Assembly (NCBI RefSeq): GCF_900156345.1
Contig: NZ_FTPP01000002.1
Span: 558,001-622,000 of the forward strand
Length of the DNA stretch: 64,000 nucleotides
Reading direction: 5' to 3'
Source: Pontibacter indicus
GTDB taxonomy: Bacteria; Bacteroidota; Bacteroidia; Cytophagales; Hymenobacteraceae
This document shows, one piece after another, positions 7,356 through 25,711 of this stretch. Each line of letters begins with the position of its first letter. Position 1 is the first letter of the stretch. The notes under the pieces were generated by a model. That model was not told the origin of the DNA. It ran no database searches and saw nothing but the letters and a program-made list of their open reading frames with translations. The translations under genes and the position numbers were made by a program.

Positions 7356-7356
7356 G

Positions 7357-10115: not shown

Positions 10116-10223
10116 AATAAGGCGCTTTGCTATACCTTGCCAATCGGTAAACAAATGCTAACTTGGTTTACCGACGCCAACCGGCCGTTCACCGACTTCT
10201 GTACCAGAGTAGCCTATTAGCCA

Positions 10224-10254
10224 TTGAAGTGGGCTTTAGCTTCTTATACCTTTG
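10224..10254 (+). promoter_or_regulatory. Promoter of the LiaF-like/LytS/LytR operon
   Basis: TTG at 10224-10226, 20-base spacer, TACCTTTG at 10247-10254; 32 bases to the ATG. The -7 element overlaps a copy of the window-wide word TATACC. Confidence 0.6.
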
Positions 10255-10286
10255 GAACAGATCTTAAAACTAAACGAAATAAAACC

Positions 10287-11135
10287 ATGAAAAATCAAGA
10301 TTACAATAGAGGCGGTTCCGGCAAAATGGCTGGCGTATTTCTCCTGATGGTGGGCGTTCTCTTGCTCACTGCCAAAATGGGCATTTTCTTTCTGCCGGGC
10401 TGGGTGTTCTCCTGGCCGATGTTCCTGATCGCACTGGGTGTTTACTTGGGTTTCAAGCACTCGTTCCAGAAACCGAGCTGGCTGGTGCTGATCGTGATCG
10501 GTGGCGTTTTCCTGCTCGACAAGCACTTCTTCCTGGACTTTAACCTGAAGATGTATTTCTGGCCGATCCTGATCATTGGTCTGGGTCTTTGGCTGATCAT
10601 GAAGCCTAAAAAGCGCAACCCTTGGGAAGCACAGATCAATGCCAATCCTAACCCGAGACCAGAGGACACACCCGGCTATTACACCGATCCGGTGAATGGC
10701 GCTTACCCCGGTGGCTATACCGACTATACCGGCGACGAAGCTTACACAGCCAATGGCTACGATGGCACGCAGGGCTACACGGCTGGCGGACCCGAAGACC
10801 AGCTCGACAGTGTGGCAGTGCTAGGCGGGATAAAAAAAAACATCGTCTCTAAAAACTTCAAAGGAGGCGAAGTGGTGAGTGTGTTCGGCGGCACGGAGCT
10901 CAACCTGATGCAGGCCGACATTCAGCACCCCATTGTACTGGAGGCTACTCAGATATTCGGAGGCACCACATTGATCGTACCCCCGCACTGGCAGGTGAAG
11001 TCCGACGAGATGGTGGCCATACTGGGCGGCATTGACGACAAGCGACCGGCCATGCCACAGGGCTACGACCCGAATAAAGTGCTCATCCTGAAAGGCACCA
11101 CGCTGTTTGGCGGACTAAGCATTAAGAGCTACTAA
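10287..11135 (+). CDS. LiaF-like envelope-stress membrane protein
   Basis: A 282-residue protein. The N-terminal half has four membrane helices of the LiaI/LiaF type (about 14-35, 39-56, 62-80, 88-106). A Gly/Tyr/Asp-rich linker follows (about 125-185; repeats of GYTDYTGDEAYTANGYDG type). The C-terminal beta-strand domain (about 190-282) carries repeated LGGIKKN, FGGTELN, FGGTTLI and LGGIDDK turns typical of LiaF. LiaF proteins restrain the sensor kinase of cell-envelope stress systems; here a LytS-type kinase and LytTR regulator follow at once (1-base gap), so a negative partner role is likely. The start is the ATG at 10287; the open frame to 10224 would include the promoter. Confidence 0.78.
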   Translation: MKNQDYNRGGSGKMAGVFLLMVGVLLLTAKMGIFFLPGWVFSWPMFLIALGVYLGFKHSFQKPSWLVLIVIGGVFLLDKHFFLDFNLKMYFWPILIIGLGLWLIMKPKKRNPWEAQINANPNPRPEDTPGYYTDPVNGAYPGGYTDYTGDEAYTANGYDGTQGYTAGGPEDQLDSVAVLGGIKKNIVSKNFKGGEVVSVFGGTELNLMQADIQHPIVLEATQIFGGTTLIVPPHWQVKSDEMVAILGGIDDKRPAMPQGYDPNKVLILKGTTLFGGLSIKSY

Positions 11136-11136
11136 T

Positions 11137-12195
11137 ATGGAGGGGGTGGCATCGCAGGTGCGCCTGGGGCTGCTATACCTGGGCTGGGCTTTGCTCTGGT
11201 CGGTGGTGCAGGTGCTGGTGCTCTGGCCTACAGGCTTTGAGAGGCACATCATGGTGACGGATGCGTTGCTTACCAACCTGCTGCTGGCCATTGGCGGCTT
11301 TGCCATGGGCACGGGGCTGCGCTACTACCAGCCCAGCTTGCGACAGGCGGGTTTCCTGCTGGGCTGGAGCCTGGGGCTGGCAGGTATAAGCGCCACCGTC
11401 TTCTACTGGAGCACCCATACCTTGTTCGAAAGCAACGCGCTATACCTTCGATTTGTGGACAGCACACTGGCGATCAGGGTAGCGTTTAACTGGCTGATGC
11501 TGCTCCTGATGCTACTCCTGACCTGGCTCTGGTTCTATACCCGTGAGTTGCAGGAGGCCGAAAAGCGCAAGGCCGCCACAGAGAAACTGGCCCGCGAGGC
11601 CGAGCTCTATAACCTGCGCCAGCAATTGCAGCCGCACTTTCTGTTCAACAGCCTCAACTCCATCAGCGCCCTGGCGGTGAGTCGGCCGGAGCAGGCCCGT
11701 ACCATGGTGCAGCAGCTGTCCGATTTTCTGCGCGGCACCCTGCGCAAGGACAACAGCCAGCTGGTGCCTTTGGCGGAAGAACTCAAGCAGTTGCAGCTAT
11801 ACCTGGACATCGAGAAAGTGCGCTTCGGGCACCGCCTGCAGGTAGAGGTAGAGGCCACCGAAGAGAGCCAGGAGATGAAGTTACCCGTATTGTTGCTTCA
11901 ACCAGTGGTGGAAAATGCCATCAAGTTCGGGCTCTACGATACGGTGGGGGAGACGGCCATCAAAGTAAAAGCGACGATAACAGACGGCTACCTGACCATC
12001 ACGACCCAAAACCCCTACGACCCCGCCACGAGCCAGCCCCGCAAAGGCACCGGCTTTGGGCTCGACTCCATCCGGCGCAGGCTATACCTGCTCTATGCCC
12101 GCCAGGACTTGCTGAACACCACGCAGCAGGACCACCAGTTCACAACTACCATCAAAATACCCCAACACTATGAAAAAATGCCTGATAATAGATGA
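11137..12195 (+). CDS. LytS/YehU-type sensor histidine kinase
   Basis: A 352-residue inner-membrane kinase: four hydrophobic segments in residues 8-138, a short coiled coil (RELQEAEKRKAATEKLAREA), then the His_kinase domain with QLQPHFLFNSLNSISAL, phospho-acceptor His167, and the ATP-binding region with PVLLLQPVVENAIKFGL and KGTGFGLDSIRRRL. It has no extracytoplasmic sensor domain, so it probably senses through the membrane or its LiaF-like partner. Its last 26 bases overlap the regulator gene, which implies coupled translation. Confidence 0.9.
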   Translation: MEGVASQVRLGLLYLGWALLWSVVQVLVLWPTGFERHIMVTDALLTNLLLAIGGFAMGTGLRYYQPSLRQAGFLLGWSLGLAGISATVFYWSTHTLFESNALYLRFVDSTLAIRVAFNWLMLLLMLLLTWLWFYTRELQEAEKRKAATEKLAREAELYNLRQQLQPHFLFNSLNSISALAVSRPEQARTMVQQLSDFLRGTLRKDNSQLVPLAEELKQLQLYLDIEKVRFGHRLQVEVEATEESQEMKLPVLLLQPVVENAIKFGLYDTVGETAIKVKATITDGYLTITTQNPYDPATSQPRKGTGFGLDSIRRRLYLLYARQDLLNTTQQDHQFTTTIKIPQHYEKMPDNR

Positions 12196-12913
12196 CGAAC
12201 CGCTGGCCCGCAGCATAGTGGCCGAGTACCTGCAGGCTTACCCCGAGCTGCAGGTAATGCAGGAGTGCGGCGATGGTTTTGAAGGTGTCAAGGCCATTAT
12301 GCAGCACCAGCCCGATCTGATCTTCCTCGACATCCAGATGCCCAAGATCAATGGCTTCGAGATGCTGGAGCTCGTGGAGCAGGCGCCTGGTGTCATCTTC
12401 ACCACCGCCTTCGACGAGTACGCCATCAAAGCTTTCGAAACCAATGCCGTCGACTACCTGCTCAAGCCGTTTAGCCGGGAGCGCTTCGATGCAGCCATAC
12501 GCAAGTGGCTCCAAAACCAGAAAACGGCGGAGGCTCTACCTGTTACCACCGCCCTGGAAGAGGCCACTGGCAAGCAACCGGAAGAGCAGCACCGCATTGT
12601 GGTGCGGGCTGGCAACAACATCCGCATCATCCCTGTGGCTGATGTGCTATACCTAGAGGCCTACGACGACTATGTGAAGATCCATACCCGTGACGGCGTG
12701 TTCCTGAAAAAGAAGACGATGGGCTACTATGAAAAGGCGCTCGATCCGTCGCAATTCGTGCGGGTGCACCGCTCCTACATCATAGCCCTCTCGCAGCTCA
12801 CCCGCATCGAACCCTTCGAGAAAGACAGCCACATGGCCCTGCTGCGCAATGGGCAGCGCATACCTTTAAGCAAAAGCGGCTATACCCGCCTGCGTACTGT
12901 GCTTGGCATTTAG
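12170..12913 (+). CDS. LytTR-family response regulator
   Basis: A 247-residue partner of the preceding kinase. The receiver domain (1-120) has the acidic pair Asp8-Asp9, phospho-acceptor Asp54 (LIFLDIQMP) and Lys99 (YLLKPF). The C-terminal LytTR DNA-binding domain (about 140-247) shows the typical VLYLEAYDDYVKIHT and FVRVHRSYIIAL motifs. It probably binds direct repeats upstream of target promoters; none could be assigned here. The spacer that follows (12914-13130) holds no gene that I can see. Confidence 0.93.
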   Translation: MKKCLIIDDEPLARSIVAEYLQAYPELQVMQECGDGFEGVKAIMQHQPDLIFLDIQMPKINGFEMLELVEQAPGVIFTTAFDEYAIKAFETNAVDYLLKPFSRERFDAAIRKWLQNQKTAEALPVTTALEEATGKQPEEQHRIVVRAGNNIRIIPVADVLYLEAYDDYVKIHTRDGVFLKKKTMGYYEKALDPSQFVRVHRSYIIALSQLTRIEPFEKDSHMALLRNGQRIPLSKSGYTRLRTVLGI

Positions 12914-13130
12914 ATAGTATAACTGATGGCAACAGCGTTGCATTCATCTGATTATGAATAGTGTTTTTGCTTTTCAGAGTCAGAATATCAGCGTCTGAAT
13001 CAGCTTTTGCCCTGTTCGTCTAAATAATTTTTTCCCTCCCCGAAAACCTGACAAATTTGTCTCGCCTTGGGTGGCACCTAACTTACACTGTCATGCAAAA
13101 CATTGGCGGAATAATTCTGTTATTCCTTTG

Positions 13131-13160
13131 CGGAAACTTTGGTGATCTAAAACGTTTCCG
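13131..13160. promoter_or_regulatory. Putative TetR operator
   Basis: CGGAAAC (13131-13137) and its exact reverse complement GTTTCCG (13154-13160) are separated by 16 bases. The arms bracket the -33 TTTG and touch the -7 element of the TetR gene promoter, the position expected for an autoregulatory operator. Confidence 0.5.
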
Positions 13161-13168
13161 TAGTTTTG
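13138..13168 (+). promoter_or_regulatory. Promoter of the TetR/RND efflux operon
   Basis: TTTG at 13138-13141, 19-base spacer, TAGTTTTG at 13161-13168: an excellent match to the Bacteroidota consensus. The ATG of the TetR gene is 16 bases downstream of the -7 element. Confidence 0.7.
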
Positions 13169-13184
13169 CCGCGGAATTATAAAA

Positions 13185-13817
13185 ATGGAAACATCCATAC
13201 AGCCATCGGTAAAAGATAAGATCGCAGCAGAGGCATTCAGGCTTTTCTGTCGGCGAGGCATTAAAGGCACCTCGGTTGACGATCTTGCCCAGCACCTCTC
13301 CATGTCGAAAAAGACCATTTACAAATGGTTTAGCAACAAAGATGAGATCGTGCTTTGGGCCATCAACTCATACCTGACCTCGGTGGACACAGATTGCGAG
13401 CAATGCAGGCATAAGGCGCCCAATGCCATCGAAGAGCTTTTCGCAGTCATGAAAACCACCCGGGAGGTCTTTGCCAGCATTCACCCGGGCATCTTTTACG
13501 ATCTGCAGAAATACCACGGCGATGCCTGGAACAAGTGGCAGGAGTACAAGAACCATCACTTTCTGAACCGCATCAAGGACAACCTGGAGCGGGGTATGGC
13601 GGAGGGTTTGTTCCGCAAAGACCTGGATGTGGAGGTGATCGCCCGCCTGCGTCTGGCCCAGATCGAAGTGCCCTTCGACGAAACGATCTTCCCACGCTTC
13701 AAATTTGAGCTGCTGCACGTGCAAACGGCCAGTCTGGAGCACTTTATGCTCGGCATCGCCACGCTCAAAGGACATAAGATGATCAACGACTACAAGCAAA
13801 TCACTGAAGAAGAATAA
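13185..13817 (+). CDS. TetR/AcrR family transcriptional regulator
   Basis: A 210-residue repressor. The N-terminal helix-turn-helix (about 10-55) reads AAEAFRLFCRRGIKGTSVDD ... HLSMSKKTIYKWFSNKDEI, a strong TetR signature; the remainder is a helical ligand and dimer domain with no assignable family. It is the first gene of the efflux operon (19 bases before the TolC-like gene) and its promoter carries an inverted repeat, so it most likely represses itself and the pump until an inducer binds. The inducer cannot be told from the sequence. Confidence 0.92.
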   Translation: METSIQPSVKDKIAAEAFRLFCRRGIKGTSVDDLAQHLSMSKKTIYKWFSNKDEIVLWAINSYLTSVDTDCEQCRHKAPNAIEELFAVMKTTREVFASIHPGIFYDLQKYHGDAWNKWQEYKNHHFLNRIKDNLERGMAEGLFRKDLDVEVIARLRLAQIEVPFDETIFPRFKFELLHVQTASLEHFMLGIATLKGHKMINDYKQITEEE

Positions 13818-13836
13818 CCGAATAGCCCCTCCCACT

Positions 13837-15309
13837 ATGAAAAAACACAGTAGTCTGTTATTGGCATTGTTCGTCTTGCTCAGCCCGTTTGGTGTGCTGG
13901 CGCAAGACTCGCCGCGGACCTTTAGTTTGCAGCAGAGCATCGACTACGCGCTGCAGAACCGCGTCAACCTGAAGGTAAACCGCAACGAAGAAGAGATCGG
14001 CAAGGCAAAGGTAGGCGAGATCCGGGCCATGGGTTTGCCGCAGATCAACGCCAACGCGGAGGTAGGTAATAACTTCATCCAGCAGAAAACACTGTTTGAC
14101 CCAAGCAGTTTCGGCACCGCCTCCCAACTGGATCCTTTTGTGATCACGCCGGAGCAACTCGCCTCCGGGCAACCCATTGTGCTCAGCCCCACCTATTCCC
14201 AGCCGGAACCGCAGCCGTCGGGCGGGCTGCAGGCCATTTCTTTTGTGCAGCCCTATAACGGCGGGCTCACCATCACGGGCAGTCAGCTCCTGTTCGACGG
14301 CTCATACCTGATCGGGCTCAAAGCGGCCAAAACCTACACCGAGCTCTCCCGCAAAACGACGGCGCAAAGCGAGATAGAGGTGGCCGAGCAGGTTTCCAAG
14401 GCCTACTACAGCGTGCTGGTGAACCGGGAGCGCATGGAGCTCCTGCTGCAGAACATGGTGCGCCTGGACACGCTGCTGAAGCAGACACAGGTGATGTTCG
14501 ACAATGGGGTGGCCGAAAAGCTGGACGTTGACCGCCTGCGCGTGTCGTTCAACAACCTCAATGTGGAGAAGCAGAAGACCGAGCGTTTGCTCATGCTGAG
14601 CGAGCACCTGCTCAAGTTCCAGATGGGAATGAACCAGAACGAACAGCTGGTGCTGACCGACAAGCTGAGTGAGGTGGAAGTGGATGTGGAGAAAGGCAAC
14701 CGAAACAACTTCAACTACAGCAACCGCATCGAGTATTCCCTGCTCGAAACACAGCGCGACCTGGCCCTGCTGGACCTGCGCAACAAACGCTCCGGCTACC
14801 TGCCCAAGCTCTACCTGAACGGGCGCTATGGCTACATTGGAGTGGGAAGAACCTTCTCCGACATCATGCACATCCGGGCCGGGCGGGACAACACGACCGA
14901 CCGGAATTACTTTGACTTCGGGTATGTCGGGGTGCAGCTGCAGGTGCCGATTTTTGACGGCCTGCTCAAGCACTACCAGATACAGCAGTCCAAGCTGACG
15001 CTCGAAAACACCAAGATCGGGTTCGAAGGCCTGAAGCAGAGCATCGACCTGCAGTTGGAGCAATCCTCGACTGACCTGACCAACTCACTGGATGTGCTGA
15101 CGTCACAGCGCGAGAACCTGGAGCTGGCCGAGGAGATCGCCCGCGTGGCCAAGATCAAGTTTCAGGAGGGCGTGGGCTCCAACCTGGAGGTGGTGACGGC
15201 CGAAACCGACCTGCGCCAGGCCCAGACCAACTACTACGCCGCCATGTATGACGCCCTGATCGCGAAAGTGAACCTCGACAAAGCCACTGGCACCCTACTC
15301 ACAAAATAA
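13837..15309 (+). CDS. TolC-family outer membrane efflux protein
   Basis: A 490-residue outer-membrane channel with signal peptide MKKHSSLLLALFVLLSPFGV ending in LAQ. Two OEP-type halves are visible: the family start SLQQSIDYALQNRVNLKVNR near residue 30, long heptad-rich helices (about 165-260 and 395-480) and the C-terminal SNLEVVTAETDLRQAQTNYY. It forms the exit duct of the tripartite pump encoded with the next two genes. Confidence 0.92.
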   Translation: MKKHSSLLLALFVLLSPFGVLAQDSPRTFSLQQSIDYALQNRVNLKVNRNEEEIGKAKVGEIRAMGLPQINANAEVGNNFIQQKTLFDPSSFGTASQLDPFVITPEQLASGQPIVLSPTYSQPEPQPSGGLQAISFVQPYNGGLTITGSQLLFDGSYLIGLKAAKTYTELSRKTTAQSEIEVAEQVSKAYYSVLVNRERMELLLQNMVRLDTLLKQTQVMFDNGVAEKLDVDRLRVSFNNLNVEKQKTERLLMLSEHLLKFQMGMNQNEQLVLTDKLSEVEVDVEKGNRNNFNYSNRIEYSLLETQRDLALLDLRNKRSGYLPKLYLNGRYGYIGVGRTFSDIMHIRAGRDNTTDRNYFDFGYVGVQLQVPIFDGLLKHYQIQQSKLTLENTKIGFEGLKQSIDLQLEQSSTDLTNSLDVLTSQRENLELAEEIARVAKIKFQEGVGSNLEVVTAETDLRQAQTNYYAAMYDALIAKVNLDKATGTLLTK

Positions 15310-15342
15310 AACACCCCAAGAAAGATTTACACAAGACTCACT

Positions 15343-16491
15343 ATGAAAAAGATATTTGGAGTTTCATCGCTTGCGCTGTTCCTAAGCTTGGCTGCCTGCA
15401 ACCAGGGCAACGACAAAGAGGCGCAGCTGGCCGAACTGAAACAGCAGCAGACCGAACTGCAGGAGCAGATCGCTAAACTGGAGGCAGAGCTGAAGGAAGA
15501 AGGCAAGGGCGGCCCGGTTGAAAAGAAAACGGTGCCGGTAACCGTGGCGCAGGTGCAGCAGAATACTTTCCGCCACTATGTGGAGGTACAGGGCCGGGTG
15601 GACTTTGACCAGAACGTACTGGTGAGTGCCAAGGTGCCGGGCGTGCTGACAGGCGTGCGGGTGAAGCGCGGCGACAAAGTGACCAAAGGCCAGACCATGG
15701 CCACCATCGATGCACAGGTGCTGGAGCAAAACATCGCCGAGGTACGCACCCGCCTGGAACTGGCCAATGTCGCCTACGAGCGCCAGAAAAACCTTTGGGA
15801 CCAGAAGATCGGCACTGAGATGCAGTTCCTGACGGCCAAGAACAACAAAGAGGCGCTGGAGCGTAACCTGGCCGCCCTGCAGCAGCAGCGTGACCAATTC
15901 AATATCAAAGCACCTGTGAGTGGCGTGGTGGACGATGTGATTCCGAACGCCGGGGAGGCCGTGGCGCCCGGCGTGGGCATCATCCGGGTGGTGAATACCA
16001 ATGGCGGCAAGATCGTGGCGGAGGTGTCGGAAGCCTACCTGACCAAGGTGAGCAAAGGCGACGAGGCGCTGGTGCGCTTCCCGGACCTGAACCAGGAAAT
16101 AACCGCCACTGTGGACGTGGTGAGCAGCTTCATCAACCCGAGCAGCCGCACCTTTACCATCGAGCTGCGGCCTAAGAATGTGGAGGTGGCGCTACGCCCG
16201 AACCTGGTGGCCGTGGTGCGCATTCAGGACTACCGCAAGGAAGACGCCATTATTATACCTGTCAACCTGGTGCAGCGCGACGAGAAAGCGCAGTATGTGT
16301 ACGTGGCCCAGAAACAGGGTGAGCGCTACGTGGCCACCCGACGCGAAGTGGAAACAGGCGTGAACTACCAGGGGCAGGTAGAGGTGCTGAAAGGGCTGAC
16401 AGCGCAGGACTACATCATTACAGCCGGCTACCAGAGTGTGAACGAGGGGCAGCCGGTTGTCTTCAACCAGGAGAGCATCGCGCAGCAGTAA
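15343..16491 (+). CDS. RND efflux periplasmic adaptor (membrane fusion protein)
   Basis: A 382-residue lipoprotein (lipobox LAAC, Cys19) with an early coiled coil (about 25-55, Glu/Gln/Leu-rich), then the HlyD/AcrA order: lipoyl half (VQGRVDFDQNVLVSAKVPGV ... GVRVKRGDKVTKGQ), alpha hairpin (LEQNIAEVRTRLELANVAYE onward), second lipoyl half (IKAPVSGVVDDVIPNAGE) and beta-barrel domain. It links the permease to the TolC-like duct. The extra coiled coil right after the lipid anchor is longer than in AcrA. Confidence 0.92.
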   Translation: MKKIFGVSSLALFLSLAACNQGNDKEAQLAELKQQQTELQEQIAKLEAELKEEGKGGPVEKKTVPVTVAQVQQNTFRHYVEVQGRVDFDQNVLVSAKVPGVLTGVRVKRGDKVTKGQTMATIDAQVLEQNIAEVRTRLELANVAYERQKNLWDQKIGTEMQFLTAKNNKEALERNLAALQQQRDQFNIKAPVSGVVDDVIPNAGEAVAPGVGIIRVVNTNGGKIVAEVSEAYLTKVSKGDEALVRFPDLNQEITATVDVVSSFINPSSRTFTIELRPKNVEVALRPNLVAVVRIQDYRKEDAIIIPVNLVQRDEKAQYVYVAQKQGERYVATRREVETGVNYQGQVEVLKGLTAQDYIITAGYQSVNEGQPVVFNQESIAQQ

Positions 16492-16509
16492 CCTTTTAAG
16501 CCGAAAACT

Positions 16510-19500
16510 ATGAAATATTTCAAGCCGACCAATTGGGCCATTGATAATAGAACGAGTATCTACATCATCACCCTGATCATCGCGGTATGGGGTATATTCT
16601 CATACATCACGCTTCAGAAAGAGAACTTTCCCGACATCGTGATCCCGACGGTGTTTGTTGGCACGGTATACCCGGGCACCTCCCCGGCTGATATCGAAAA
16701 CCTCGTAACACGGCCCATTGAAAAGCAGCTGAAGTCCATTTCAGGGGTGAAGAAGGTGAGCTCCAATTCCATTCAGGACTTCTCCATGATCACGGTGGAG
16801 TTCAACACCGATGTGGATGTGGTGGAGGCCAAGCAACTGGTAAAAGACGCTGTGGACAAGGCCCGCACCGACCTGCCGACCGACCTCGACCAGGACCCGG
16901 ACGTGCAGGAGGTGAACTTCTCTGAATTCCCGATCATGTACATCAACGTGTCGGGCAACTACAGCCTCGACCGTCTGAAAAAGTACGCCGAGGACATCCA
17001 GGACCGCATTGAGGCGCAGCCCGAGATCACGCGCGTGGACATGGTGGGCGCGCTGGACCGGGAGGTGCAGGTGAACGTGGACCTCTACAAGATGCAGGTT
17101 GCGCAGATGACTTTTGCCGACATCAGCCGGGCCATCGCCTCTGAAAACGTGACGGTGTCGGGTGGCAACATTTCGGTGGGCGAGATGAAGCGCTCGGTGC
17201 GAGTGGTAGGCCAGTACACCGACCCGAACAAGATCGGCGACATCGTGGTGAAGTCGCTGTCGGGCGCTAACGTACAGCTCAAGGAGATTGCGGAGGTGAA
17301 AGAGGGTTTTGAGGAGCAGGAGAGCTTTGCCCGCCTGGACAACTCACCCGTTATCACGCTCAACATAATCAAGCGAAGCGGCGAGAACCTGATCGAGGCG
17401 TCCGACAACATTCATGCCTTGGTAGAAGAGATGCAGGCCAGCGTGCTGCCAGGCGACCTCAAGATCACCATCACCGGCGACCAGTCCACCATGACGCGCC
17501 ATACCTTGAACGACCTGATCAACACAATCATCATCGGCTTCGTGCTGGTGACCCTGATCCTGATGTTCTTCATGGGTACCACCAACGCCATTTTTGTGGG
17601 CCTGTCGGTGCCGATCTCCATGTTCATTGCCTTCATGCTGATGCCGGTGCTGGGCTTCTCGCTCAACATGATCGTGTTGTTCTCCTTCCTGCTGGCGCTG
17701 GGCATTGTGGTGGACGATGCCATTGTGGTGATCGAGAACACGCACCGTATTCTGCACCAGTCCAATCTGGGTATAATCAAGTCGGCGAAGCTGGCTGCGG
17801 GCGAGGTGTTTATACCTGTGCTGGCCGGTACGCTCACTACCGTGGCGCCGTTCCTGCCGCTGGCCTTCTGGCCAGGTATAGTAGGGGAGTTCATGTTCTT
17901 CCTGCCCATTACACTCATTGTTACACTGATGGCCTCGCTGTTGGTGGCGTTCATCATGAACCCCGTGTTTGCCGTGTCTTTCATGAAGAGGGAGCACGAA
18001 CAGGAAGCTGACGTGTCGCCGCGCGCCCGTCGTAACTTCTGGCTACTGATAGGGAGCGCCGCATTGGTGGCCATCGTGGGTTATCTGGCTGGCTGGTATG
18101 GTACGGCCAACCTGATCATGCTGGTTGTGGTGCTGGTGCTGCTCAACCGCTTTGTGTTCCGCCGCATGATCCACGGCTTCCAGAACACTACCTTGCCGCG
18201 CTTCATGCGGGGCTACGAGCGCCTTTTGCGCTGGATGCTGGTGGGCAGGCGCCCGGTCTGGATGTTTCTGAGCATGTTCGGGCTACTTATTTTCTCTATT
18301 TTCCTGACAGCGGTTCGGGCTCCCAAAGTTGTATTCTTTCCGGATTCTGATCCCAACTTCGTGTATACCTACATCAGCATGCCGGTGGGCACTGATCAGC
18401 TTGTGACTGACTCGGTTACAAAAGAAGTCGAGCGGCGCATCTACCGCGTGATCGGCGAGGGCAACACCGACGTGGAATCGGTTATTTCCAATGTGGCCAT
18501 CGGCGCCGGCGACCAAAACGACCGCAGCGTGACTGCACAATCTCATTTAGGAAAGGTTACCGTAGCCTTTGTTGAGTATCAATACCGGACCGGCGAGCGC
18601 AGCACGCAGGATTACATGAACGAAATACGGGAGGCGGTGCGCGGTATACCGGGCACCAACATCACGGTGGACAAAGAGCAGAACGGTCCGCCGGTGGGCA
18701 AGCCGATCAGCGTCGAGATTGCCGGCGAGGACTTCGAGGGACTGGTGGCGCTGTCGAAGCAAGTGCAGACCTACATCGAGCAGCAGCAGATCGGAGGTAT
18801 AGAGGAGCTTCGCAGCGACCTGGAGGACAGCAAGCCGGAGATCATCATCAACATCGACCGGGAGCGCGCCAACCGCGAAGGCATCAGCACCGGGCAGATC
18901 GGGATGGAGCTGCGAACGGCCATTTTCGGTGAGGAGGCCTCCAAGTTTAAGCTCGACGAAGAGGAGTACCCGATACAGGTGCGCTACGCTGAGCCATACC
19001 GCAAAAACATCGACGCCTTGCTGGGCATGCGCATCACGTACCGCGACATGAACAGCGGGCAGGTGCGCCAGATACCGCTCTCGTCGCTGGCAACAATAGA
19101 GTACGGTACCTCATACGGAGGTATCAAGCGCAAGGACCTGAAACGCGTGGTTACGCTGGAGTCGAACGTGCTGGACGGGTATAACGCCAATGAGGTGGTG
19201 CAGAACATCGGCAGTGCCCTGCAGAATTTCCAGACCCCTGAGGGCTATGAGATCAGCATGGGTGGGCAGCAGGAAGAGCAGCAGGAGTCAGCCAACTTCC
19301 TGATGATCGCTTTGCTGGCAGCGTTCCTGATCATCTTCCTGGTGCTGGTGACGCAGTTCAACTCCATCTCGAAGCCGTTCATCATTCTGTCCGAGGTGCT
19401 CTTCAGCATCATCGGTGTGCTGCTGGGCTTCTCCATTTTCGGCATGGATGTGTCGGTCGTAATGACAGGTGTGGGCATTGTGGCACTGGCAGGCATTGTG

Positions 19501-19944
19501 GTGAAAAACGGCATCCTGATTGTGGAATTTACGGACCTGCTGATAGAAGAGGGCCGCGACCTGAAAGAAGCGATTGTGGAAGCGGGCAAAACGCGCCTGA
19601 ACCCCGTGCTGCTGACGGCGACGGCCACTATACTAGGCCTGATACCCTTGGCGTTAGGTATAAACCTGAACTTTTATACCCTGTTCACAGAGTTCAAGGC
19701 GAACTTCTTTATGGGAGGCGACAGTGCCGCTTTCTGGGGGCCGCTGGCCTGGACCATCATTTTTGGCCTGGGATTTGCGACCATCATCACGCTCCTGATT
19801 GTGCCGGTCATGTACCTGCTCAATGAGAAGCTAAGAGCTAAAGTAAAAGGAGAGAGAAAGCCCGCAGGCGGCGTAAAAATTATACCTCAGAATGAAACAG
19901 AGGTGCCTGTAAATGGAAAAGTAGTTAGAGAATACACCCAATAA
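16510..19944 (+). CDS. RND-family efflux permease (AcrB type)
   Basis: A 1144-residue proton-driven inner-membrane pump with 12 membrane helices in the usual 1+5+1+5 layout and two large periplasmic loops. Helix 4 carries the proton-relay Asp pair in LALGIVVDDAIVVIENTHRI, and the second half shows GIVALAGIVVKNGILIVEF. The protein is about 100 residues longer than AcrB. A segment GGDSAAFWGPLAWTIIFGL precedes the last helix. Substrate unknown; the set could export drugs, bile-like detergents or lipids. Many Ile codons here are ATA inside GGTATA or ATACC words. Confidence 0.94.
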   Translation: MKYFKPTNWAIDNRTSIYIITLIIAVWGIFSYITLQKENFPDIVIPTVFVGTVYPGTSPADIENLVTRPIEKQLKSISGVKKVSSNSIQDFSMITVEFNTDVDVVEAKQLVKDAVDKARTDLPTDLDQDPDVQEVNFSEFPIMYINVSGNYSLDRLKKYAEDIQDRIEAQPEITRVDMVGALDREVQVNVDLYKMQVAQMTFADISRAIASENVTVSGGNISVGEMKRSVRVVGQYTDPNKIGDIVVKSLSGANVQLKEIAEVKEGFEEQESFARLDNSPVITLNIIKRSGENLIEASDNIHALVEEMQASVLPGDLKITITGDQSTMTRHTLNDLINTIIIGFVLVTLILMFFMGTTNAIFVGLSVPISMFIAFMLMPVLGFSLNMIVLFSFLLALGIVVDDAIVVIENTHRILHQSNLGIIKSAKLAAGEVFIPVLAGTLTTVAPFLPLAFWPGIVGEFMFFLPITLIVTLMASLLVAFIMNPVFAVSFMKREHEQEADVSPRARRNFWLLIGSAALVAIVGYLAGWYGTANLIMLVVVLVLLNRFVFRRMIHGFQNTTLPRFMRGYERLLRWMLVGRRPVWMFLSMFGLLIFSIFLTAVRAPKVVFFPDSDPNFVYTYISMPVGTDQLVTDSVTKEVERRIYRVIGEGNTDVESVISNVAIGAGDQNDRSVTAQSHLGKVTVAFVEYQYRTGERSTQDYMNEIREAVRGIPGTNITVDKEQNGPPVGKPISVEIAGEDFEGLVALSKQVQTYIEQQQIGGIEELRSDLEDSKPEIIINIDRERANREGISTGQIGMELRTAIFGEEASKFKLDEEEYPIQVRYAEPYRKNIDALLGMRITYRDMNSGQVRQIPLSSLATIEYGTSYGGIKRKDLKRVVTLESNVLDGYNANEVVQNIGSALQNFQTPEGYEISMGGQQEEQQESANFLMIALLAAFLIIFLVLVTQFNSISKPFIILSEVLFSIIGVLLGFSIFGMDVSVVMTGVGIVALAGIVVKNGILIVEFTDLLIEEGRDLKEAIVEAGKTRLNPVLLTATATILGLIPLALGINLNFYTLFTEFKANFFMGGDSAAFWGPLAWTIIFGLGFATIITLLIVPVMYLLNEKLRAKVKGERKPAGGVKIIPQNETEVPVNGKVVREYTQ

Positions 19945-19947
19945 TAT

Positions 19948-20205
19948 ATGATTGCAACAACAGACAAGACTATTGAGCGTGAGGTAATCCGTATCATTAG
20001 CAAAACGAAGGAGATTAGACCTGCCCGTTTGCAGGCAAATGCCCGTCTGGAAAAGGATTTCGGCTTTGATGTGGTGGATGTAGTGGATATCATCCTGGAG
20101 CTGGAGAAGAATTTCCAGATCACTATTCCGGACGAAGTCCCGATTAACACAGTAGGCGACTTCGTGGACTTTGTGGCGTCGCACGCGATGCAGAAAGCCA
20201 GCTAA
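19948..20205 (+). CDS. Acyl-carrier-like protein lacking the phosphopantetheine serine
   Basis: An 85-residue protein with the four-helix ACP pattern: REVIRIISKT, RLEKDFGFDVVDVVDIILEL and FQITIPDEVPINTVGDFVDF align well with ACP. However, the invariant Asp-Ser-Leu at the start of helix 2 reads Asp41-Val42-Val43, so no 4'-phosphopantetheine can be attached at the usual site. It starts 3 bases after the permease stop and is followed by a terminator, so it is the last gene of the efflux operon. It may be a structural or regulatory partner rather than an acyl carrier. Confidence 0.82.
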   Translation: MIATTDKTIEREVIRIISKTKEIRPARLQANARLEKDFGFDVVDVVDIILELEKNFQITIPDEVPINTVGDFVDFVASHAMQKAS

Positions 20206-20230
20206 TTAAAGGTATAACGTTATAAACAGA

Positions 20231-20266
20231 AGCGGCCGGGGTGCAAACCCCGGCCGCTTTTTATTT
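20231..20266 (+). terminator. Terminator of the efflux operon
   Basis: AGCGGCCGGGGT and ACCCCGGCCGCT form a perfect GC-rich stem around GCAA, followed by TTTTATTT. Confidence 0.92.
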
Positions 20267-20371
20267 GGCCAGACAACAGCGCGAGAGGCAAGCTCCTGCG
20301 CAAGTGTTGTTTTGTGTATGTTTTCTAAAGCTTGAAGTAGTAAAGTAAGCGTTCTGTCAATAGGCTTCAGT

Positions 20372-21112
20372 TTAGTAAATGGAAATGCGGTAGGCTTTTA
20401 GTTTCTGGTCCAGTGCCTTGGAGTTCGGGCAAACCTTGTCGAGCAGGTTCCAGAAGCCCGGGCCGTGGTTCTTCTCAATGGTGTGCGCCAGCTCGTGCAG
20501 GATCACGTAATCGCAGAGTGAGTCGGGCAGGCGCATCAGGTGCAGGTTCAGGTTGATGTTGTTGGTGTGCGAGCAGCTCCCCCAGCGCGACTTGGCGTTT
20601 TTGATGAACACGTTCTGGTAGTCGAAGCCGAACTTGTCGGCAAAGAGCTTCACGCGCTCCGGCAGGTACGCCTTGGCCTCCTTGCGGTAGGCCTCCTCAA
20701 TCGACTTGCGGATGAACTTCTGCACATCGTTGTCGCGCACGTCTTTATAGGCCGGGTAGAACACGTTGATGTAGCCGTTCTCGATCACACAGCGCATGGT
20801 ATACTGGGCGTGCGTGAGCAGGCGCAGGGTATGGCTGCGGGTCCGGAAGTCGGTATTGCCATCGTACATGGTCACGCGCGCCTCCTGCTGCTTCATGCGG
20901 GCCTGGTGCTCCTTTATCCAATCGCTCTTGGTATAAATAAGCTGTTCGGCTTTCTCGAAGCTGATGTGAGGCGGCACTGCCACACGTATGCCTTTGATGG
21001 GGCGCACGCTAATGCTAAGGCGCTTGGCCTTGTCGCTTCGTTCGATCAGAACCTTCCCGATTCCGTCGATGTGAAGATTAACGGATGTTAGTCGTAGAAA
21101 TGAAGAAGACAC
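20372..21112 (-). CDS. YgjP-type (DUF45) M48-like metallopeptidase
   Basis: A 246-residue probable zinc peptidase. The active site is HELAH at 206-210 with a third His at 216 in NHGPGFW, and the family hallmark KNAKSRWGSCS lies at 171-181. There is no signal peptide, so it is cytosolic. YgjP-family proteins are often encoded beside restriction or stress genes, but here the gene stands alone. It has its own promoter (21148-21180). Substrate unknown. The spacer at 20267-20371 shows nothing recognisable. Confidence 0.85.
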   Translation of the reverse strand: MSSSFLRLTSVNLHIDGIGKVLIERSDKAKRLSISVRPIKGIRVAVPPHISFEKAEQLIYTKSDWIKEHQARMKQQEARVTMYDGNTDFRTRSHTLRLLTHAQYTMRCVIENGYINVFYPAYKDVRDNDVQKFIRKSIEEAYRKEAKAYLPERVKLFADKFGFDYQNVFIKNAKSRWGSCSHTNNINLNLHLMRLPDSLCDYVILHELAHTIEKNHGPGFWNLLDKVCPNSKALDQKLKAYRISIY

Positions 21113-21147
21113 CTTGGCTAAAAGTTAAAAATACACAATCATCAGTC

Positions 21148-21180
21148 CAAATATAGAGAATAAATTCATTAAGAAACCAA
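21148..21180 (-). promoter_or_regulatory. Promoter of the YgjP-like gene
   Basis: On the minus strand TTG (21180-21178), 22-base spacer, TATATTTG (21155-21148), 35 bases before the ATG at 21112. Confidence 0.5.
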
Positions 21181-21319
21181 TAGCTGAGCGGCTTTTTTCT
21201 AAATTTTTTCAGATTTCAGTATTTGAATAGTACTATATTGTGCAGCTGTTATGTATTTTTTTAAGCTGTGTTATGGGCCTTTCTGATCGGTTTCGAAGCA
21301 CTTATAGACCAGTGTAAAG

Positions 21320-21354
21320 GCCAAAAAAATAGCCGCCCTGCAAGTCGGCTATTT
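21320..21354 (-). terminator. Terminator after the YkvA-like gene
   Basis: AAATAGCCG and CGGCTATTT pair around a 10-base loop, and on the minus strand the stem is followed by a T run (the A run at 21323-21329 on plus). Confidence 0.75.
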
Positions 21355-21379
21355 CTAATTTTTCTTTTGTAGAGCAGGC

Positions 21380-22069
21380 TTAGCGAATGTTGCCGCCGTC
21401 CGGAACATCGTCGTGCGGGTCTTTTGGAACACGGCTGCTGTCGGTGGTGGAGGCGCGCACGATGGGCTCGTGGTGACCTTTGTCTTCGGTGTCATGGCCC
21501 TGCGAAGCGTGTGCCGCGCTTTCGTGCTGCACTTCTGTGGTACCGGCAGGCTGATCGCTGTACTTGGGTGTGCCAAAAGAGCTGTCGGCGTGGTGCGGCT
21601 CCATGATGTGCACGGTCTGCTGACGCGCCTGGCGCTCGGCGTCCCACTCCTTAAAGCGGTCCAGCTCGGCCTTGATGCTGGCCATAAACCAGGCTAGCAG
21701 GGCAGCGTCGTCCAGCAGACCGACCACCGGTATAAAGTCCGGAATCAAATCAAGCGGCATCAGGAAGTACAGGATAACGGCCACGCCGCCTACCAGGGTG
21801 GTGTTCGGTATACCTTTGTACTCTCCGTTCACCGCAGCCCTGATCATCTGCGACAGCACCTGGAAACTTTCCCACACTTCGGAGGCGATGGTGCCGAGGC
21901 TTTTCTTGGCAGTGGCTTTCTTAAAGGCATCATTCAGAAGCTTGATCACCTGCGAAGGGTGCTCCAGGTATTTCTCAGCCTTTTTGAGGATGTTCTTGAA
22001 GAGCGGGCTTTGGGAGATGTTTTTTCCGTCCGGGCGCTCTTGTTGGTTTTGCGTATGCTGATCTGTCAT
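21380..22069 (-). CDS. YkvA/DUF1232 family membrane protein
   Basis: A 229-residue protein. The DUF1232 core is VGGVAVILYFLMPLDLIPDF followed by IPVVGLLDDAALLAWF (about residues 92-128), a short two-helix membrane unit. Before it lies a charged helical region (residues 20-75), after it a hydrophilic tail (130-229) rich in His, Asp and Ser that is probably disordered. Function of the family is unknown. The start is ATG 22069; the extra 22 codons in the open frame upstream have a tRNA-spacer-like composition. Confidence 0.75.
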   Translation of the reverse strand: MTDQHTQNQQERPDGKNISQSPLFKNILKKAEKYLEHPSQVIKLLNDAFKKATAKKSLGTIASEVWESFQVLSQMIRAAVNGEYKGIPNTTLVGGVAVILYFLMPLDLIPDFIPVVGLLDDAALLAWFMASIKAELDRFKEWDAERQARQQTVHIMEPHHADSSFGTPKYSDQPAGTTEVQHESAAHASQGHDTEDKGHHEPIVRASTTDSSRVPKDPHDDVPDGGNIR

Positions 22070-22248
22070 AAAATGTCTGTGATTTTGTAAGGCCCCTTGT
22101 ACAGGGGGTGTGCGAATCGGGCGCAAGTTGCTCAACTCCCGACAAGCTTCCTATACCTTGCTGCAAGTAATTTTGTTCTACCCTATAAACGAAAAACGGG
22201 CGCCTTATGCTGCAGCCCGTTTTTAAAATCTGTCACGAAGGTATGGGG

Positions 22249-22869
22249 TTAGTCCACACGGCCCGCCGCGTAGTAATAGTTGCGGTAGTAGGGCTCCTTC
22301 AGGGAGCTTACCATCACGCCGCCACTGGTGGCAGAGTGCACGAACTTGTTGTCTTTGAGGTAGATGCCCACATGGAAGATCGGCTGTCTGGGGCCACGAC
22401 GGAAGAATACCAGGTCGCCGGTGCGCACGCTGTCTTTACGGATGCGGGTCACGTCGTCGAACATGGAGCGGGAGCTGCGGCTCAGGTCGATGCCATACAC
22501 GTCGCTGTAAATGCGGGTCACGAAGCCGGAGCAGTCGGTCCCTCTTTTGGAGCTGCTGCCGTAGCTGTAGGGCGTGCCCAGCCACTTGGTAACGGTTTCG
22601 AGCAAGGTCTTGTCTTCGTTATAGTCGAGCTGGAGGCCAAGCTTGCGGGAATAGCGCTTGTAGAAGGCCGAGTCTACCGGTTCGCTCAGGTCCAGCGGCA
22701 CTGTGAGGGCCAAGGCCCGGGCAATGTCCTCGCCGGTTTGCACCGGGTATAGCGTCAGGTTGGCGGCTTCTGTTTCGGCTGGCGTCGCCTCCGGCTTTTT
22801 TACATCGTAGAAGAAGGAAAGAGCGATGGAGATGAGTGCCAGTACGCTCAGTATGATTGTTTTTGTCAT
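22249..22869 (-). CDS. NlpC/P60 family cell-wall endopeptidase
   Basis: A 206-residue exported cysteine peptidase. Residues 1-20 are a hydrophobic signal or anchor helix. The NlpC/P60 domain (about 88-205) has catalytic Cys113 in GTDCSGF, His166 in FHVGIYL and a third polar site at His178, with GTPYSYGSSSKRG leading in. The family cleaves D-Glu-diaminopimelate or related bonds of peptidoglycan. The start at 22869 (MTKTIILSVLAL) fits a membrane signal; the longer frame from 22914 adds 15 unlikely residues. Confidence 0.9.
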   Translation of the reverse strand: MTKTIILSVLALISIALSFFYDVKKPEATPAETEAANLTLYPVQTGEDIARALALTVPLDLSEPVDSAFYKRYSRKLGLQLDYNEDKTLLETVTKWLGTPYSYGSSSKRGTDCSGFVTRIYSDVYGIDLSRSSRSMFDDVTRIRKDSVRTGDLVFFRRGPRQPIFHVGIYLKDNKFVHSATSGGVMVSSLKEPYYRNYYYAAGRVD

Positions 22870-23002
22870 AGGGTTTAGCATGTTTAACACTGCCGGAGCA
22901 GCAAACTTTGTCACCTTATGGTTGCAGCGCGGTATAGGTTTTAAATTGCATTTTATACCTTACAACCTGCCCGATAGCTAAAATAACTTCCGAACGAAGT
23001 GA

Positions 23003-23033
23003 CAAAAATAACTACAATTTTCTAAACTGACAA
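23003..23033 (-). promoter_or_regulatory. Putative promoter of the NlpC/P60 gene
   Basis: Minus-strand TTG (23033-23031), 20-base spacer, TATTTTTG (23010-23003). It would give a leader of about 130 bases before the ATG at 22869. Confidence 0.35.
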
Positions 23034-23151
23034 TATAGCAATTGGCTGATGCTCACGGGGAACAGGTATAGGATTTACCCTTTAAAACGGAGCTTTCACC
23101 CGGCAGGGCGCTTTGAGGCGCCATTCTGGAAGCACAGCCTATAGGTATAAC

Positions 23152-23571
23152 ATGACGAAAATGAAGTACAAAATTGTTGAAAACTCGCCCTTCGCACGCA
23201 TCGCCCGCCTGGTGCTCAAGAGCAGTAATGTGGCCATGGTATTGGGCAAAACGATACACCTGAGCGGTGTGAGGCGGGAGTCTTTTCTTAAAGACAGTGC
23301 CTGGGTAGCGCACGAGCTTTGCCACATCCGACAGTTTCAGGAGCACGGCTACCTGCGCTTTCTGTGGTTATACCTGCGCGAGTCGATGCGGGTGGGTTAC
23401 TGGAACAACAAATACGAAGTGGAGGCCCGCTTAGCAGGTACAAAAGGGCGGCAGGAGTTTCTGGCAGAACTCAGGAAAGAAACGGATGCGCAGCTACCTG
23501 CCCAACCACACAGCAACATCCATCCAACAGGCTTGCCTATACCTGTTGATGTAAAGAAAAAGACTATCTGA
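23152..23571 (+). CDS. Small putative metallopeptidase-like protein (HExxH)
   Basis: A 139-residue protein with HELCH at 54-58 followed by IRQFQEHG and, about 30 residues on, NKYEVEAR, which could give the third (Glu) zinc ligand as in gluzincins. The domain resembles the DUF4157-type minimal peptidases of Bacteroidota. No signal peptide. The last 30 residues look disordered. Either ATG 23152 or ATG 23161 can be the start. Function unknown; the motif is clear but activity is inferred. Confidence 0.65.
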   Translation: MTKMKYKIVENSPFARIARLVLKSSNVAMVLGKTIHLSGVRRESFLKDSAWVAHELCHIRQFQEHGYLRFLWLYLRESMRVGYWNNKYEVEARLAGTKGRQEFLAELRKETDAQLPAQPHSNIHPTGLPIPVDVKKKTI

Positions 23572-23616
23572 TTTTTAGCGCAGTACGTGCCTGCCAGCAA
23601 GGAAGGCCTCTGCAAA

Positions 23617-23759
23617 GCGGATTGCAAATCCGCGATTACTGTGCTTTCGGATTGCAAATCCGAAAGAGCATCAGCGACTGTTTGACAAAGGACTACATGA
23701 CAAAAGACAAAGGACAAAAAACACGCGGGTCTTTTGTCCTTTGTCATATTATCCTTTGT
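23617..23759. repeat. Cluster of palindromic intergenic repeats
   Basis: Two palindromes share the core CGGATTGCAAATCCG: one at 23617-23633 with GC ends and one at 23645-23665 with TTT/AAA ends. A third hairpin follows: GACAAAGGACAAAA (23706-23719) against TTTTGTCCTTTGTC (23732-23745). These are REP-like elements of the type scattered through Cytophagales spacers. Confidence 0.7.
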
Positions 23760-23818
23760 CGAGTACTCCCTGAAGGAGTCGTGCTACTTGATACGTGTGT
23801 CGTGATACGCAGAATAAA

Positions 23819-24454
23819 CTACGCTTCCCGCCACTTAATGGTGCAGCCGATTGCTTTGGTGTTTGGCTGGCTCACAGCTTTGCCGGCTACCAGTTCGTCG
23901 AGGGCGGCCTCGGCATATTTTTTCTGCACTTTCTCCGGCTCGCGCGAGTTGTCGTCGATCGTGCCGATGTAGGCTACTTTGAACTTGCCGTCTTTTTGCT
24001 TCTGCACCACATACAAGTGCGGCGTGCGGGTAGCTCCGTAGGCTTTGGTGATTTCCTGCGTTTCGTCATACACGTACGGGAACGGGAAGTTCTTTTCTTT
24101 GGCGCGCACCTGCATGTGCTTGTAAGAGTCCTTCGGCGATACTTTCACGTCGTTCGGATTGATGGCGATGATGGGGTAACCCTTCGGCGCATACTTGTTG
24201 TGCAGCTCGATCAGGCGGTCTTCATAGGCCACCGAATAGGGGCAGGTGTTGCAGGTGAAGGTCACGATAAAGCCCTTGGCATCTTTGTAATCAGCCATCG
24301 ACACCATTTTGCCGTCCACGTTTTTGAGCTTAAAGTCGCGGGCCGTGTCGCCCACCTGGTAGCCTGAGTTTTCGGTGGCAGGTATAGCGGCCATCAGTAC
24401 GCCCACCAATAGCAGGCAGGCCATGTACAAAAAGGGTATGCGGTTATTCTTCAT
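23819..24454 (-). CDS. Exported redoxin/thioredoxin-like protein
   Basis: A 211-residue protein with an N-terminal signal or anchor helix and an AhpC/Redoxin-type thioredoxin fold: GDTARDFKLKNVDGKMVSMA, then FTCNTCPYS, where CNTC is a CxxC redox pair, and TRTPHLYVV (cis-Pro loop). The family is close to peroxiredoxin-like proteins with unassigned reductase or peroxidase activity in the periplasm. It lies 10 bases downstream of the TlpA-like gene and probably shares its transcript. Confidence 0.82.
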   Translation of the reverse strand: MKNNRIPFLYMACLLLVGVLMAAIPATENSGYQVGDTARDFKLKNVDGKMVSMADYKDAKGFIVTFTCNTCPYSVAYEDRLIELHNKYAPKGYPIIAINPNDVKVSPKDSYKHMQVRAKEKNFPFPYVYDETQEITKAYGATRTPHLYVVQKQKDGKFKVAYIGTIDDNSREPEKVQKKYAEAALDELVAGKAVSQPNTKAIGCTIKWREA

Positions 24455-24463
24455 AGTAGTTCG

Positions 24464-24961
24464 TTATGGTTTATACTTGGTGATCAGTTCCTCTAATTCC
24501 TGTTGCGAAATCTCGCGCTCGATAAACTCGTATTGCCCGCGCTTGTTGTTGAAAAACATGGTGGCAGGTATAGCGCCCGACCACTTCGGCTCGATGCGGT
24601 CGATCCAGGTGTTGCCATCGGGCTCGTCGAGCAGGTATAGCCGCGACTGCAGGTTGCGCTTCTGCACAAAAGGCAACACACGTTTCTCCTTGTCCTGCAC
24701 GGCATCCATGCTTACCAGAATCACGCGCACCGGCTGGTCTTTGTATTTCGCATGGGCGGCTTCAAAATAAGGCATCTCCTTGATACAGGGCTTGCACCAG
24801 GTGGCCCAGAAATTCACCACATACAGCGTGTCGTGCGGCGCCTGGCGCAGCTCCTGCAACTGGTCGAACTTGATGGTGGTAACGGTCTGGGCCTGCGTTG
24901 CCATGCTGGTGACAAAGGCCAGTGTAATAAGCAGGAAAAACTGTTTCAGGTATACGGTCAT
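24464..24961 (-). CDS. TlpA-like periplasmic thiol-disulfide oxidoreductase
   Basis: A 165-residue protein with signal peptide (MTVYLKQFFLLITLAFVTSM ... TQA) and a TlpA/ResA fold: VVNFWATWCKPCIKEMP holds the CKPC active site, and GAIPATMFF the cis-Pro loop. It is likely to reduce periplasmic disulfides or to supply electrons to its neighbour. The start at 24961 is preferred to 24982 because it begins the signal peptide. Downstream comes the redoxin gene, suggesting a two-gene redox operon. Confidence 0.87.
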   Translation of the reverse strand: MTVYLKQFFLLITLAFVTSMATQAQTVTTIKFDQLQELRQAPHDTLYVVNFWATWCKPCIKEMPYFEAAHAKYKDQPVRVILVSMDAVQDKEKRVLPFVQKRNLQSRLYLLDEPDGNTWIDRIEPKWSGAIPATMFFNNKRGQYEFIEREISQQELEELITKYKP

Positions 24962-25076
24962 AGTAGAATAACGAAGAAGCAAACTGCCCTATTGCGGTTG
25001 TTGCTTTCTAACAATTTGCCCTCTAAATCGTTTTGAATAAACTATACGCATGTTAAACTAAAAAAACGAATTTAGA

Positions 25077-25634
25077 ATGGCTAATAATCTGGAAGGAAAA
25101 AAGATAGCAATTGTAGTAACCGATGGATTTGAACAGGTAGAGCTCACCGAGCCTAAGAAAGCGCTGGAGCAGGCTGGCGCCGAAACCCACCTCATTGCCC
25201 TGAAAGACGGCGAAGTGAAAGGCTGGAACCACACAGACTGGGGCGATAAGTTTAAGGTGGACAAGACGATCGACAGCGTGAACGCCGACGATTACAATGG
25301 CCTGCTGCTGCCCGGCGGCGTGATGAGCCCCGACAAGCTGCGCGCCAACGAAAAGGTGGTAAACTTTGTGAGCCAGTTTATGGAAAGCGGCAAGCCCGTA
25401 GCCGCCATCTGCCACGGCCCCTGGACGCTGATCGAAACCGGCAAGCTGCAGGGCAAGAAAATGACCAGCTACCACACCTTGAAAACCGACCTCAAAAATG
25501 CCGGCGCCGAGTGGGTGGACCAGGAAGTGGTGGTAGACAATGGCCTGATTACGAGCCGCAAGCCAGACGATATACCTGCTTTCAACAAAAAGATAGTAGA
25601 GGAATTTGCCGAGGGCCGTCACGAGCCACGCTAG
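25077..25634 (+). CDS. DJ-1/PfpI family protein (type 1 glutamine amidotransferase-like)
   Basis: A 185-residue cytosolic protein with nucleophile Cys112-His113 in AAICHGPW, the acidic residue in DGFEQVEL (Glu19/Glu22 region) and the C-terminal ITSRKPDDIPAF motif of the PfpI branch. Members act as deglycases, glyoxalases or proteases; general protein or metabolite repair under stress is the safe reading. The ATG at 25077 is well separated from the divergent tlpA-like gene, so both have promoters in the 115-base gap, although no clean TAnnTTTG is seen. Confidence 0.9.
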   Translation: MANNLEGKKIAIVVTDGFEQVELTEPKKALEQAGAETHLIALKDGEVKGWNHTDWGDKFKVDKTIDSVNADDYNGLLLPGGVMSPDKLRANEKVVNFVSQFMESGKPVAAICHGPWTLIETGKLQGKKMTSYHTLKTDLKNAGAEWVDQEVVVDNGLITSRKPDDIPAFNKKIVEEFAEGRHEPR

Positions 25635-25655
25635 TCAGGCATCCGGTCATAACAG

Positions 25656-25702
25656 AAACCGCCGCGCCGTACCGACAACAGGTATAGCGCGGCGGTTTTT
25701 TG
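25656..25702 (+). terminator. Terminator with the AGGTATAG word in its loop
   Basis: AAACCGCCGCG and CGCGGCGGTTT pair around a loop of about 20 bases that contains CAGGTATAG; a T run follows. It sits between convergent genes. Confidence 0.85.
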
Positions 25703-25711
25703 TGTCTGTGC

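Follow-up and report, generated by a model that had tools for sequence, protein, structure and literature searches.

Why do rare codons in a permease gene fall again and again on the same few nucleotides? The question is raised by a stretch of 64,000 nucleotides from Pontibacter indicus (contig NZ_FTPP01000002.1, positions 558,001 to 622,000; hereafter the window). A preliminary description of it noted that the uncommon codons ATA and CTA often sit inside GGT-ATA, ATA-CCT or CTA-TAC-CTG, with several examples in a gene for an RND (AcrB-type) permease, and proposed that an iterated DNA word dictates these codons. Here we followed this word, recognized by GGTATA or its complement TATACC, through the codons and the genome of P. 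indicus and through 50 genomes of the genus. On balance, our comparisons make it probable that the word marks self-DNA, in the manner of two known kinds of tag, the DNA uptake sequences (DUS) found in Neisseriaceae and the uptake signal sequences (USS) found in Pasteurellaceae. Natural transformation, in a form that needs no type IV pili, would have spread it.

Rare codons as a by-product of an iterated DNA word

Codons were tabulated in 334 genes (111,752 codons) from 404 kb of the P. indicus genome, called with a simple in-house gene caller rather than taken from the annotation. A codon was assigned to the word if it overlapped GGTATA or TATACC, and contigs of 28 kb and 5 kb were excluded from the codon and density counts. 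Overlap was observed for 311 of 1070 ATA codons, as compared with 4 of 3818 ATC and 4 of 1853 ATT codons, and for 86 of 615 CTA codons, as compared with 111 of 6188 CTG and 1 of 1935 CTC codons, which bears out the proposed tie between the rare codons and the word. GGT preceded ATA in 197 of 1070 cases versus 89 of 5671 for ATC and ATT together (odds ratio 14, p 4e-95), while other Gly codons showed no excess before ATA (34/1070 versus 273/5671). Likewise, TACC followed CTA in excess (84/616 versus 49/9102; odds ratio 29), and there was no excess of CTA before TAC plus a non-C base (9/616 versus 150/9102). Because the excess is limited to GGT before ATA and to TACC after CTA, the codon context reflects a DNA word and not an amino-acid pair. 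The ATA/CTA effect is a by-product of the iterated word. To say that the word dictates rare codons was an overstatement, since it touches no more than 29% of the ATA codons and 14% of the CTA codons; the remaining 71% and 86% lie outside it, and the word does not account for most rare codons.

In the permease gene, 8 of the 21 ATA/CTA codons overlap GGTATA or TATACC (8/17 ATA, 0/4 CTA). The six places singled out previously all exist, and two further ones were found at 16594 and 18646. CTA-TAC-CTG does not occur in this gene; that part of the proposal survives elsewhere as the CTA-TACC effect. Full-length orthologues of the permease are present in 48 of the 50 Pontibacter genomes, and it is an ordinary host gene bearing a genome-wide word.

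Across the 4.57 Mb of P. indicus, the 9-mer AGGTATAGC occurs 2741 times (1384 + 1357 by strand) and its reversed control 19 times. The consensus with flanks is (C/A)AGGTATA(G)(C), asymmetric in that GGTATA is followed by G and then C, and no information was detected in the flanks past about 10 bp. The word is thus asymmetric, sharply bounded and 8-10 bp long, and it occurs 2-3 times per kb about equally on both strands; its palindromic form GGTATACC is a minority, with 691 places. We counted 201 GGTATA/TATACC in the window versus 13 expected from first-order composition, 48 AGGTATAGC/GCTATACCT versus 0.3 expected, and 1188 GGTATA in the 404 kb versus 233 expected from second-order composition. 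Sequences one mismatch away from the word are, for the most part, not depleted.

Word density is 4.53/kb in intergenic and 2.62/kb in coding DNA, and the difference is threefold for AGGTATAGC (1.56/kb versus 0.53/kb). Inside genes the word uses all three frames in both orientations, i.e., all six classes. The claim that the DNA word is favoured over codon choice is upheld by these two results. Convergent intergenic regions are the richest (6.74/kb), ahead of tandem (4.07) and divergent ones (3.72), and the spacing between words is near random (CV, coefficient of variation, 1.17). On one conjugation-linked contig of 28 kb, which encodes a TraG ATPase and is the single example of its kind, the word falls to 0.40/kb versus 2.94/kb on the sampled larger contigs. 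While the preliminary description was right that the word prevails over codons, it missed the word's genus specificity, its asymmetry and its dialects in related species, which are the features that bear on the mechanism.

Dialects and their turnover within the genus

The 50 Pontibacter genomes (labelled G000 and so on) carry three forms of the word; a genome was called a carrier of AAGTATAA or AACTATAG if it had at least 2000 copies. AGGTATAG is the word of the P. roseus/amylolyticus/lucknowensis clade, with 12 genomes (nine from genome-wide counts, three judged from 20-kb samples). AAGTATAA, the word of most other Pontibacter species, was found in 23 genomes and reaches 7030 copies (G012; control 80), and AACTATAG, the word of P. 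populi, burrus, fetidus and Tf4, was found in seven, three of which also carry AAGTATAA, and reaches 8208 copies (G017; control 160). The word is scarce or absent in 11 of the 50 genomes, and none of the three words was seen in the Rufibacter, Adhaeribacter and Hymenobacter loci. In word-rich genomes, forward and reverse counts differ by at most about 14%. Among the 16 words of the form A[xy]TATA, strong enrichment was restricted to AGGTATA (GG), AAGTATA (AG) and AACTATA (AC). Each belongs to its own species, with mixtures in few: both AAGTATA and AACTATA are present in P. vulgaris (G071), G026 and G032. All dialects keep A..TAT, and two core positions vary.

These forms follow descent in a tree of the permease, which was built from one protein (57 rows) by a quick method and leaves 15 of 54 inner branches open. 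The AGGTATA group and the AACTATA group require one change each, and the five labels together need 9 changes versus 27.6 when shuffled. AAGTATA, the commonest form, is scattered around the other groups and looks ancestral on this tree, with several losses.

AGGTATA sites were kept among AGGTATA-species in 314 of 491 aligned cases, as compared with 1301 of 3946 for control 7-mers matched in composition. We also compared homologous places between dialects, pooling species pairs, so that the counts of swaps below are not independent comparisons. Where one species has AGGTATA, AAGTATA-species have AAGTATA at 675 of 3833 places; the same change affects 157 of 3719 7-mers that are not words, and wordless species show it at 19 of 1769 places. 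The reverse swap was seen at 677 of 3402 places (158/3654 in non-words), and AAGTATA was replaced by AACTATA in AACTATA-species at 74 of 1065 places (0/1046 in non-words). The dialects therefore swap at homologous places, i.e., the word has been rewritten in place.

Some further patterns were observed at the margins of the dialects. In Pontibacter sp. E15-1 (L092, L061), GGTATGG/CCATACC is mildly enriched (34 versus 10.8 expected in 43 kb), which may be a fourth dialect or one in decay. Rufibacter and Sabulibacter (L098-L101, L103, L105, L106, L114) may have their own, sparser word, as ACAATGTC occurs 32 times versus 3.2 expected and CATTGTGG 38 times versus 5.5 expected in 177 kb. Word-rich genomes are also smaller: the 39 have a median of 4.6 Mb and none exceeds 5.5, while the 11 low or wordless ones have a median of 5.8 (rank test p 4e-6, relatedness ignored).

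Competence genes, a putative uptake role and its rivals

If the word tags self-DNA, one of the proteins that take up DNA would prefer molecules that bear it, and word-bearing fragments would be imported and recombined more often. The word would then build up wherever the sequence tolerates it, genes included, bringing ATA and CTA codons with it. If the specificity of the reader shifted, one dialect would give way to another at the sites that the genome already has.

ComEC, DprA and a ComEA-like gene were each found in all 50 genomes. The ComEA-like protein, 311-319 aa long (20 intact copies aligned), contains three helix-hairpin-helix (HHH) domains and matches ComEA in the PDB. NamZ (DUF1343) likewise occurs in every one of the 50 genomes, and was dropped as an informative marker for that reason. 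This set resembles that of Riemerella anatipestifer, in which transformation free of type IV pili is experimentally known to use ComEC, DprA, ComF and a three-HHH periplasmic protein, such genes being essential there without known pilus machinery (passages of PMC8459023). The Riemerella surface pair RS04920/RS04915, on the other hand, was not found in Pontibacter. DUF5689 was considered as a Riemerella-like surface DNA binder and rejected: 22 of the 50 genomes have a match, and the eight loci inspected, to which the rejection applies, lie in SusC/SusD clusters. DUF5689 proteins adjoin SusC/SusD-like genes in several Pontibacter species (L251-L258; label read from the sequences), and a second DUF5689 type is about 1280 aa long.

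The uptake systems of Neisseriaceae and Pasteurellaceae both use type IV pili. A search with PF00437 for the type IV pilus ATPase (the pilins themselves were not searched) did not find it in the 50 genomes; there were only partial matches of ~60 residues, mostly in open reading frames of ~650 aa, and three genomes lay barely above the cut-off. We therefore set pilus machinery aside, and the pilus-borne ComP route of Neisseria is unlikely because this ATPase was not found.

In two genomes, G021 and G009, comEC, dprA and the comEA-like gene all carry stops or frameshifts (L208, L209, L210, L259, L260, L261), whereas the genes for the permease, Tex and NamZ show no such damage. Among non-edge cases, control genes were intact in 20 of 20 for G009 and 14 of 17 for G021, and one of the three failed controls of G021 also fails in three of four other species tested. 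That the three genes have decayed jointly suggests that they act together and that selection otherwise maintains them. The word of G021 has itself decayed, as if its drive had stopped: the excess ratio of one-mismatch to perfect words is 1.12, versus 0.20-0.46 in three word-rich genomes.

Several observations weigh against an uptake tag. G009 has all three genes broken and yet a full word density, as after a recent loss, or else through assembly error; in the same way, G017 has its ComEC (L269) split over two frames and yet the highest AACTATAG count, which needs a recent loss or an assembly error. Conversely, all three genes are intact in G019 and G001, where the word is sparse and decayed (ratios 0.98 and 1.07), the ComEA-like gene is intact in the six wordless species aligned, and none of the 11 low or wordless genomes has a stop within its ComEC or DprA domains. 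Loss of the word does not cleanly follow loss of the competence genes. The HHH hairpin IRGIGSKLSARI is identical in all intact ComEA-like proteins aligned, whatever the dialect, and because of this invariance the ComEA-like protein is unlikely to be the dialect reader. Inverted word pairs are not in excess, unlike those that form Neisseria and Haemophilus terminators, and terminator hairpins were accordingly dropped as a role of the word. Residue replacement at words (11 of 75 versus 6.4 expected, p 0.05) is a trend only. We found no transformation assay for Pontibacter in the literature.

This mixture is most simply read as competence throughout the genus, combined with a separate, putative, sequence-specific reader that is lost more often. 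We infer three things: Pontibacter still uses the competence genes for natural transformation, uptake is biased by the word, and there is a specific reader. We would put at even odds the fuller version, in which a pilus-less uptake machine of Bacteroidota type reads the tag, the at least three dialects act as barriers between clades, and the reader is a DNA receptor of an undescribed kind.

Among the rivals, a word like HIP1 of cyanobacteria (GCGATCGC), which would have no uptake role and would be maintained in the cytoplasm, for example by an orphan methyltransferase, by repair or by chromosome structuring, is possible though doubtful. HIP1 is likewise highly iterated and frequent genome-wide; it could share the nonpolar distribution over genes and intergenic DNA and the scarcity on a foreign element, and the retention of competence genes by wordless species speaks for such a process. 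HIP1 is, however, palindromic and linked to orphan methyltransferases (parts of PMC4390886), whereas the Pontibacter word is asymmetric. The Pontibacter word also forms dialects, a feature documented for uptake sequences. The N6/N4 methyltransferases of PF01555, the only methyltransferase family tested, were rejected as the word's partner, since they occur patchily in 31 of the 50 genomes and do not track the word, being missing from the word-rich G017, G030, G060, G066, G013, G062, G003 and G010. We judge the pattern to fit the DUS of Neisseriaceae more closely than palindromic HIP1. A binding site of a nucleoid or regulatory protein, selected place by place and with dialects that track the protein's DNA-binding domain, would agree with the higher conservation of word sites than of controls and with the extra density in convergent regions; we consider it unlikely, as thousands of sites in each genome, spread evenly through coding DNA, would have to be under selection, and 11 congeners have little or no word.

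The remaining explanations are weaker. Thousands of copies could also be left by dispersed repeats or mobile element remnants (REP, MITE), or be produced by a mutational hot-spot or biased repair. This is very unlikely: elements are refuted by the absence of information in the flanks past 10 bp, turnover consists of point changes at homologous places, a single-base bias would not jointly enrich a word of 7-8 bp, and one-off neighbours are mostly not depleted. Chi- and KOPS-type motifs are short, over-represented and lineage-specific. A polar repair or segregation signal of this or another kind would agree with the slight excess on the G-rich strand of G000 (456 versus 382, p 0.012), but not with the single-contig genome G030 (587 versus 566, p 0.56), the near-equal forward and reverse counts or the higher density between genes; it is largely refuted because there is no consistent replication polarity, and we rate it marginally below the repeats. 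Codon or codon-pair preference in translation (Gly-Ile, Ile-Pro, Leu-Tyr) would explain the strong context bias of ATA and CTA, but is refuted by the intergenic excess, and the use of all six classes and the different word of sister species also stand against it; its chance is practically nil.

Word sites in the window and relation to known uptake systems

The sites in the permease gene and, as an example, one cluster of full 9-mers are collected in the table below. This cluster sits between the called genes at 44681-45175 and 45929-47137.

Table. Word sites and related features in the window (positions counted from its first letter).
Feature	Positions	Strand	Remarks
Whole window	1..64000		105 GGTATA, 96 TATACC, 48 full 9-mers, 15 GGTATACC
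RND (AcrB-type) permease gene	16510..19944	+	PF00873, E 3e-199
GGTATA	16591..16596	+	in-frame Gly-Ile
GGTATACC	16665..16672		palindromic form, two overlapping words
GGTATA	17770..17775	+	GGT-ATA
TATACC	17811..17816	-	ATA-CCT
AGGTATAG core	17875..17880	+	GGT-ATA
TATACC	18364..18369	-	
GGTATACC	18643..18650		palindromic form
AGGTATAG core	18796..18801	+	GGT-ATA
GGTATA	19178..19183	+	not in Gly-Ile frame
GGTATA	19657..19662	+	GGT-ATA
TATACC	19675..19680	-	
TATACC	19881..19886	-	ATA-CCT
Cluster of full 9-mers AGGTATAGC/GCTATACCT	45196..45815		starts 45196, 45361, 45387, 45591, 45807

The longest word-free stretch of the window (12881-16254, 3.4 kb) covers the outer-membrane efflux and membrane-fusion genes adjoining the permease. 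Elsewhere in the window, positions 37467-41276 encode a 1269-aa protein with an N-terminal metallophosphatase domain and a C-terminal Omp85-type barrel.

Like the Pontibacter word, the USS of Pasteurellaceae have a short core and occur genome-wide, and they come in clade-specific variants. Their sequence is unrelated, and the receptor predicted there is a type IV minor pilin (PMC12616744, in part). The likeness to the DUS of Neisseriaceae is closer, since these are short asymmetric words in thousands of copies, with dialects that follow phylogeny and some relatives without them; the dialects share a core (CTG in Neisseriaceae, A..TAT in Pontibacter), and densities are similar, with 5918 kingDUS in 2.4 Mb and 8208 AACTATAG in 4.5 Mb (sections of PMC3630211). 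Pontibacter differs in belonging to another phylum, in the word itself, in that the type IV pilus ATPase was not found and in having no terminator-like inverted pairs. We do not claim membership of the DUS class, and the uptake role of the word is putative. For Riemerella, candidate uptake words such as AAAAATAAAA came out of a k-mer search, with their function left open (passages of PMC7965970).

Uptake words have been described for Neisseriaceae and Pasteurellaceae (PMC7811141, in part). In the open-licence PMC literature we found no report of one in Pontibacter or its order: a motif-discovery paper (PMC5217627) mentions neither Pontibacter nor Bacteroidetes, and the passages searched of the P. 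korlensis genome paper (PMC4460873) do not mention an uptake word. The word may be the first such tag found in this bacterial phylum. If so, it would constitute a third, independent case of an uptake word, in another phylum and with dialects, losses and natural knock-outs across about 50 genomes. Comparison could then test how uptake words originate and spread (receptor first versus word first), and a new outer-membrane DNA receptor would be indicated. Finally, placing the right dialect on donor DNA may make these bacteria of soil and water genetically tractable.

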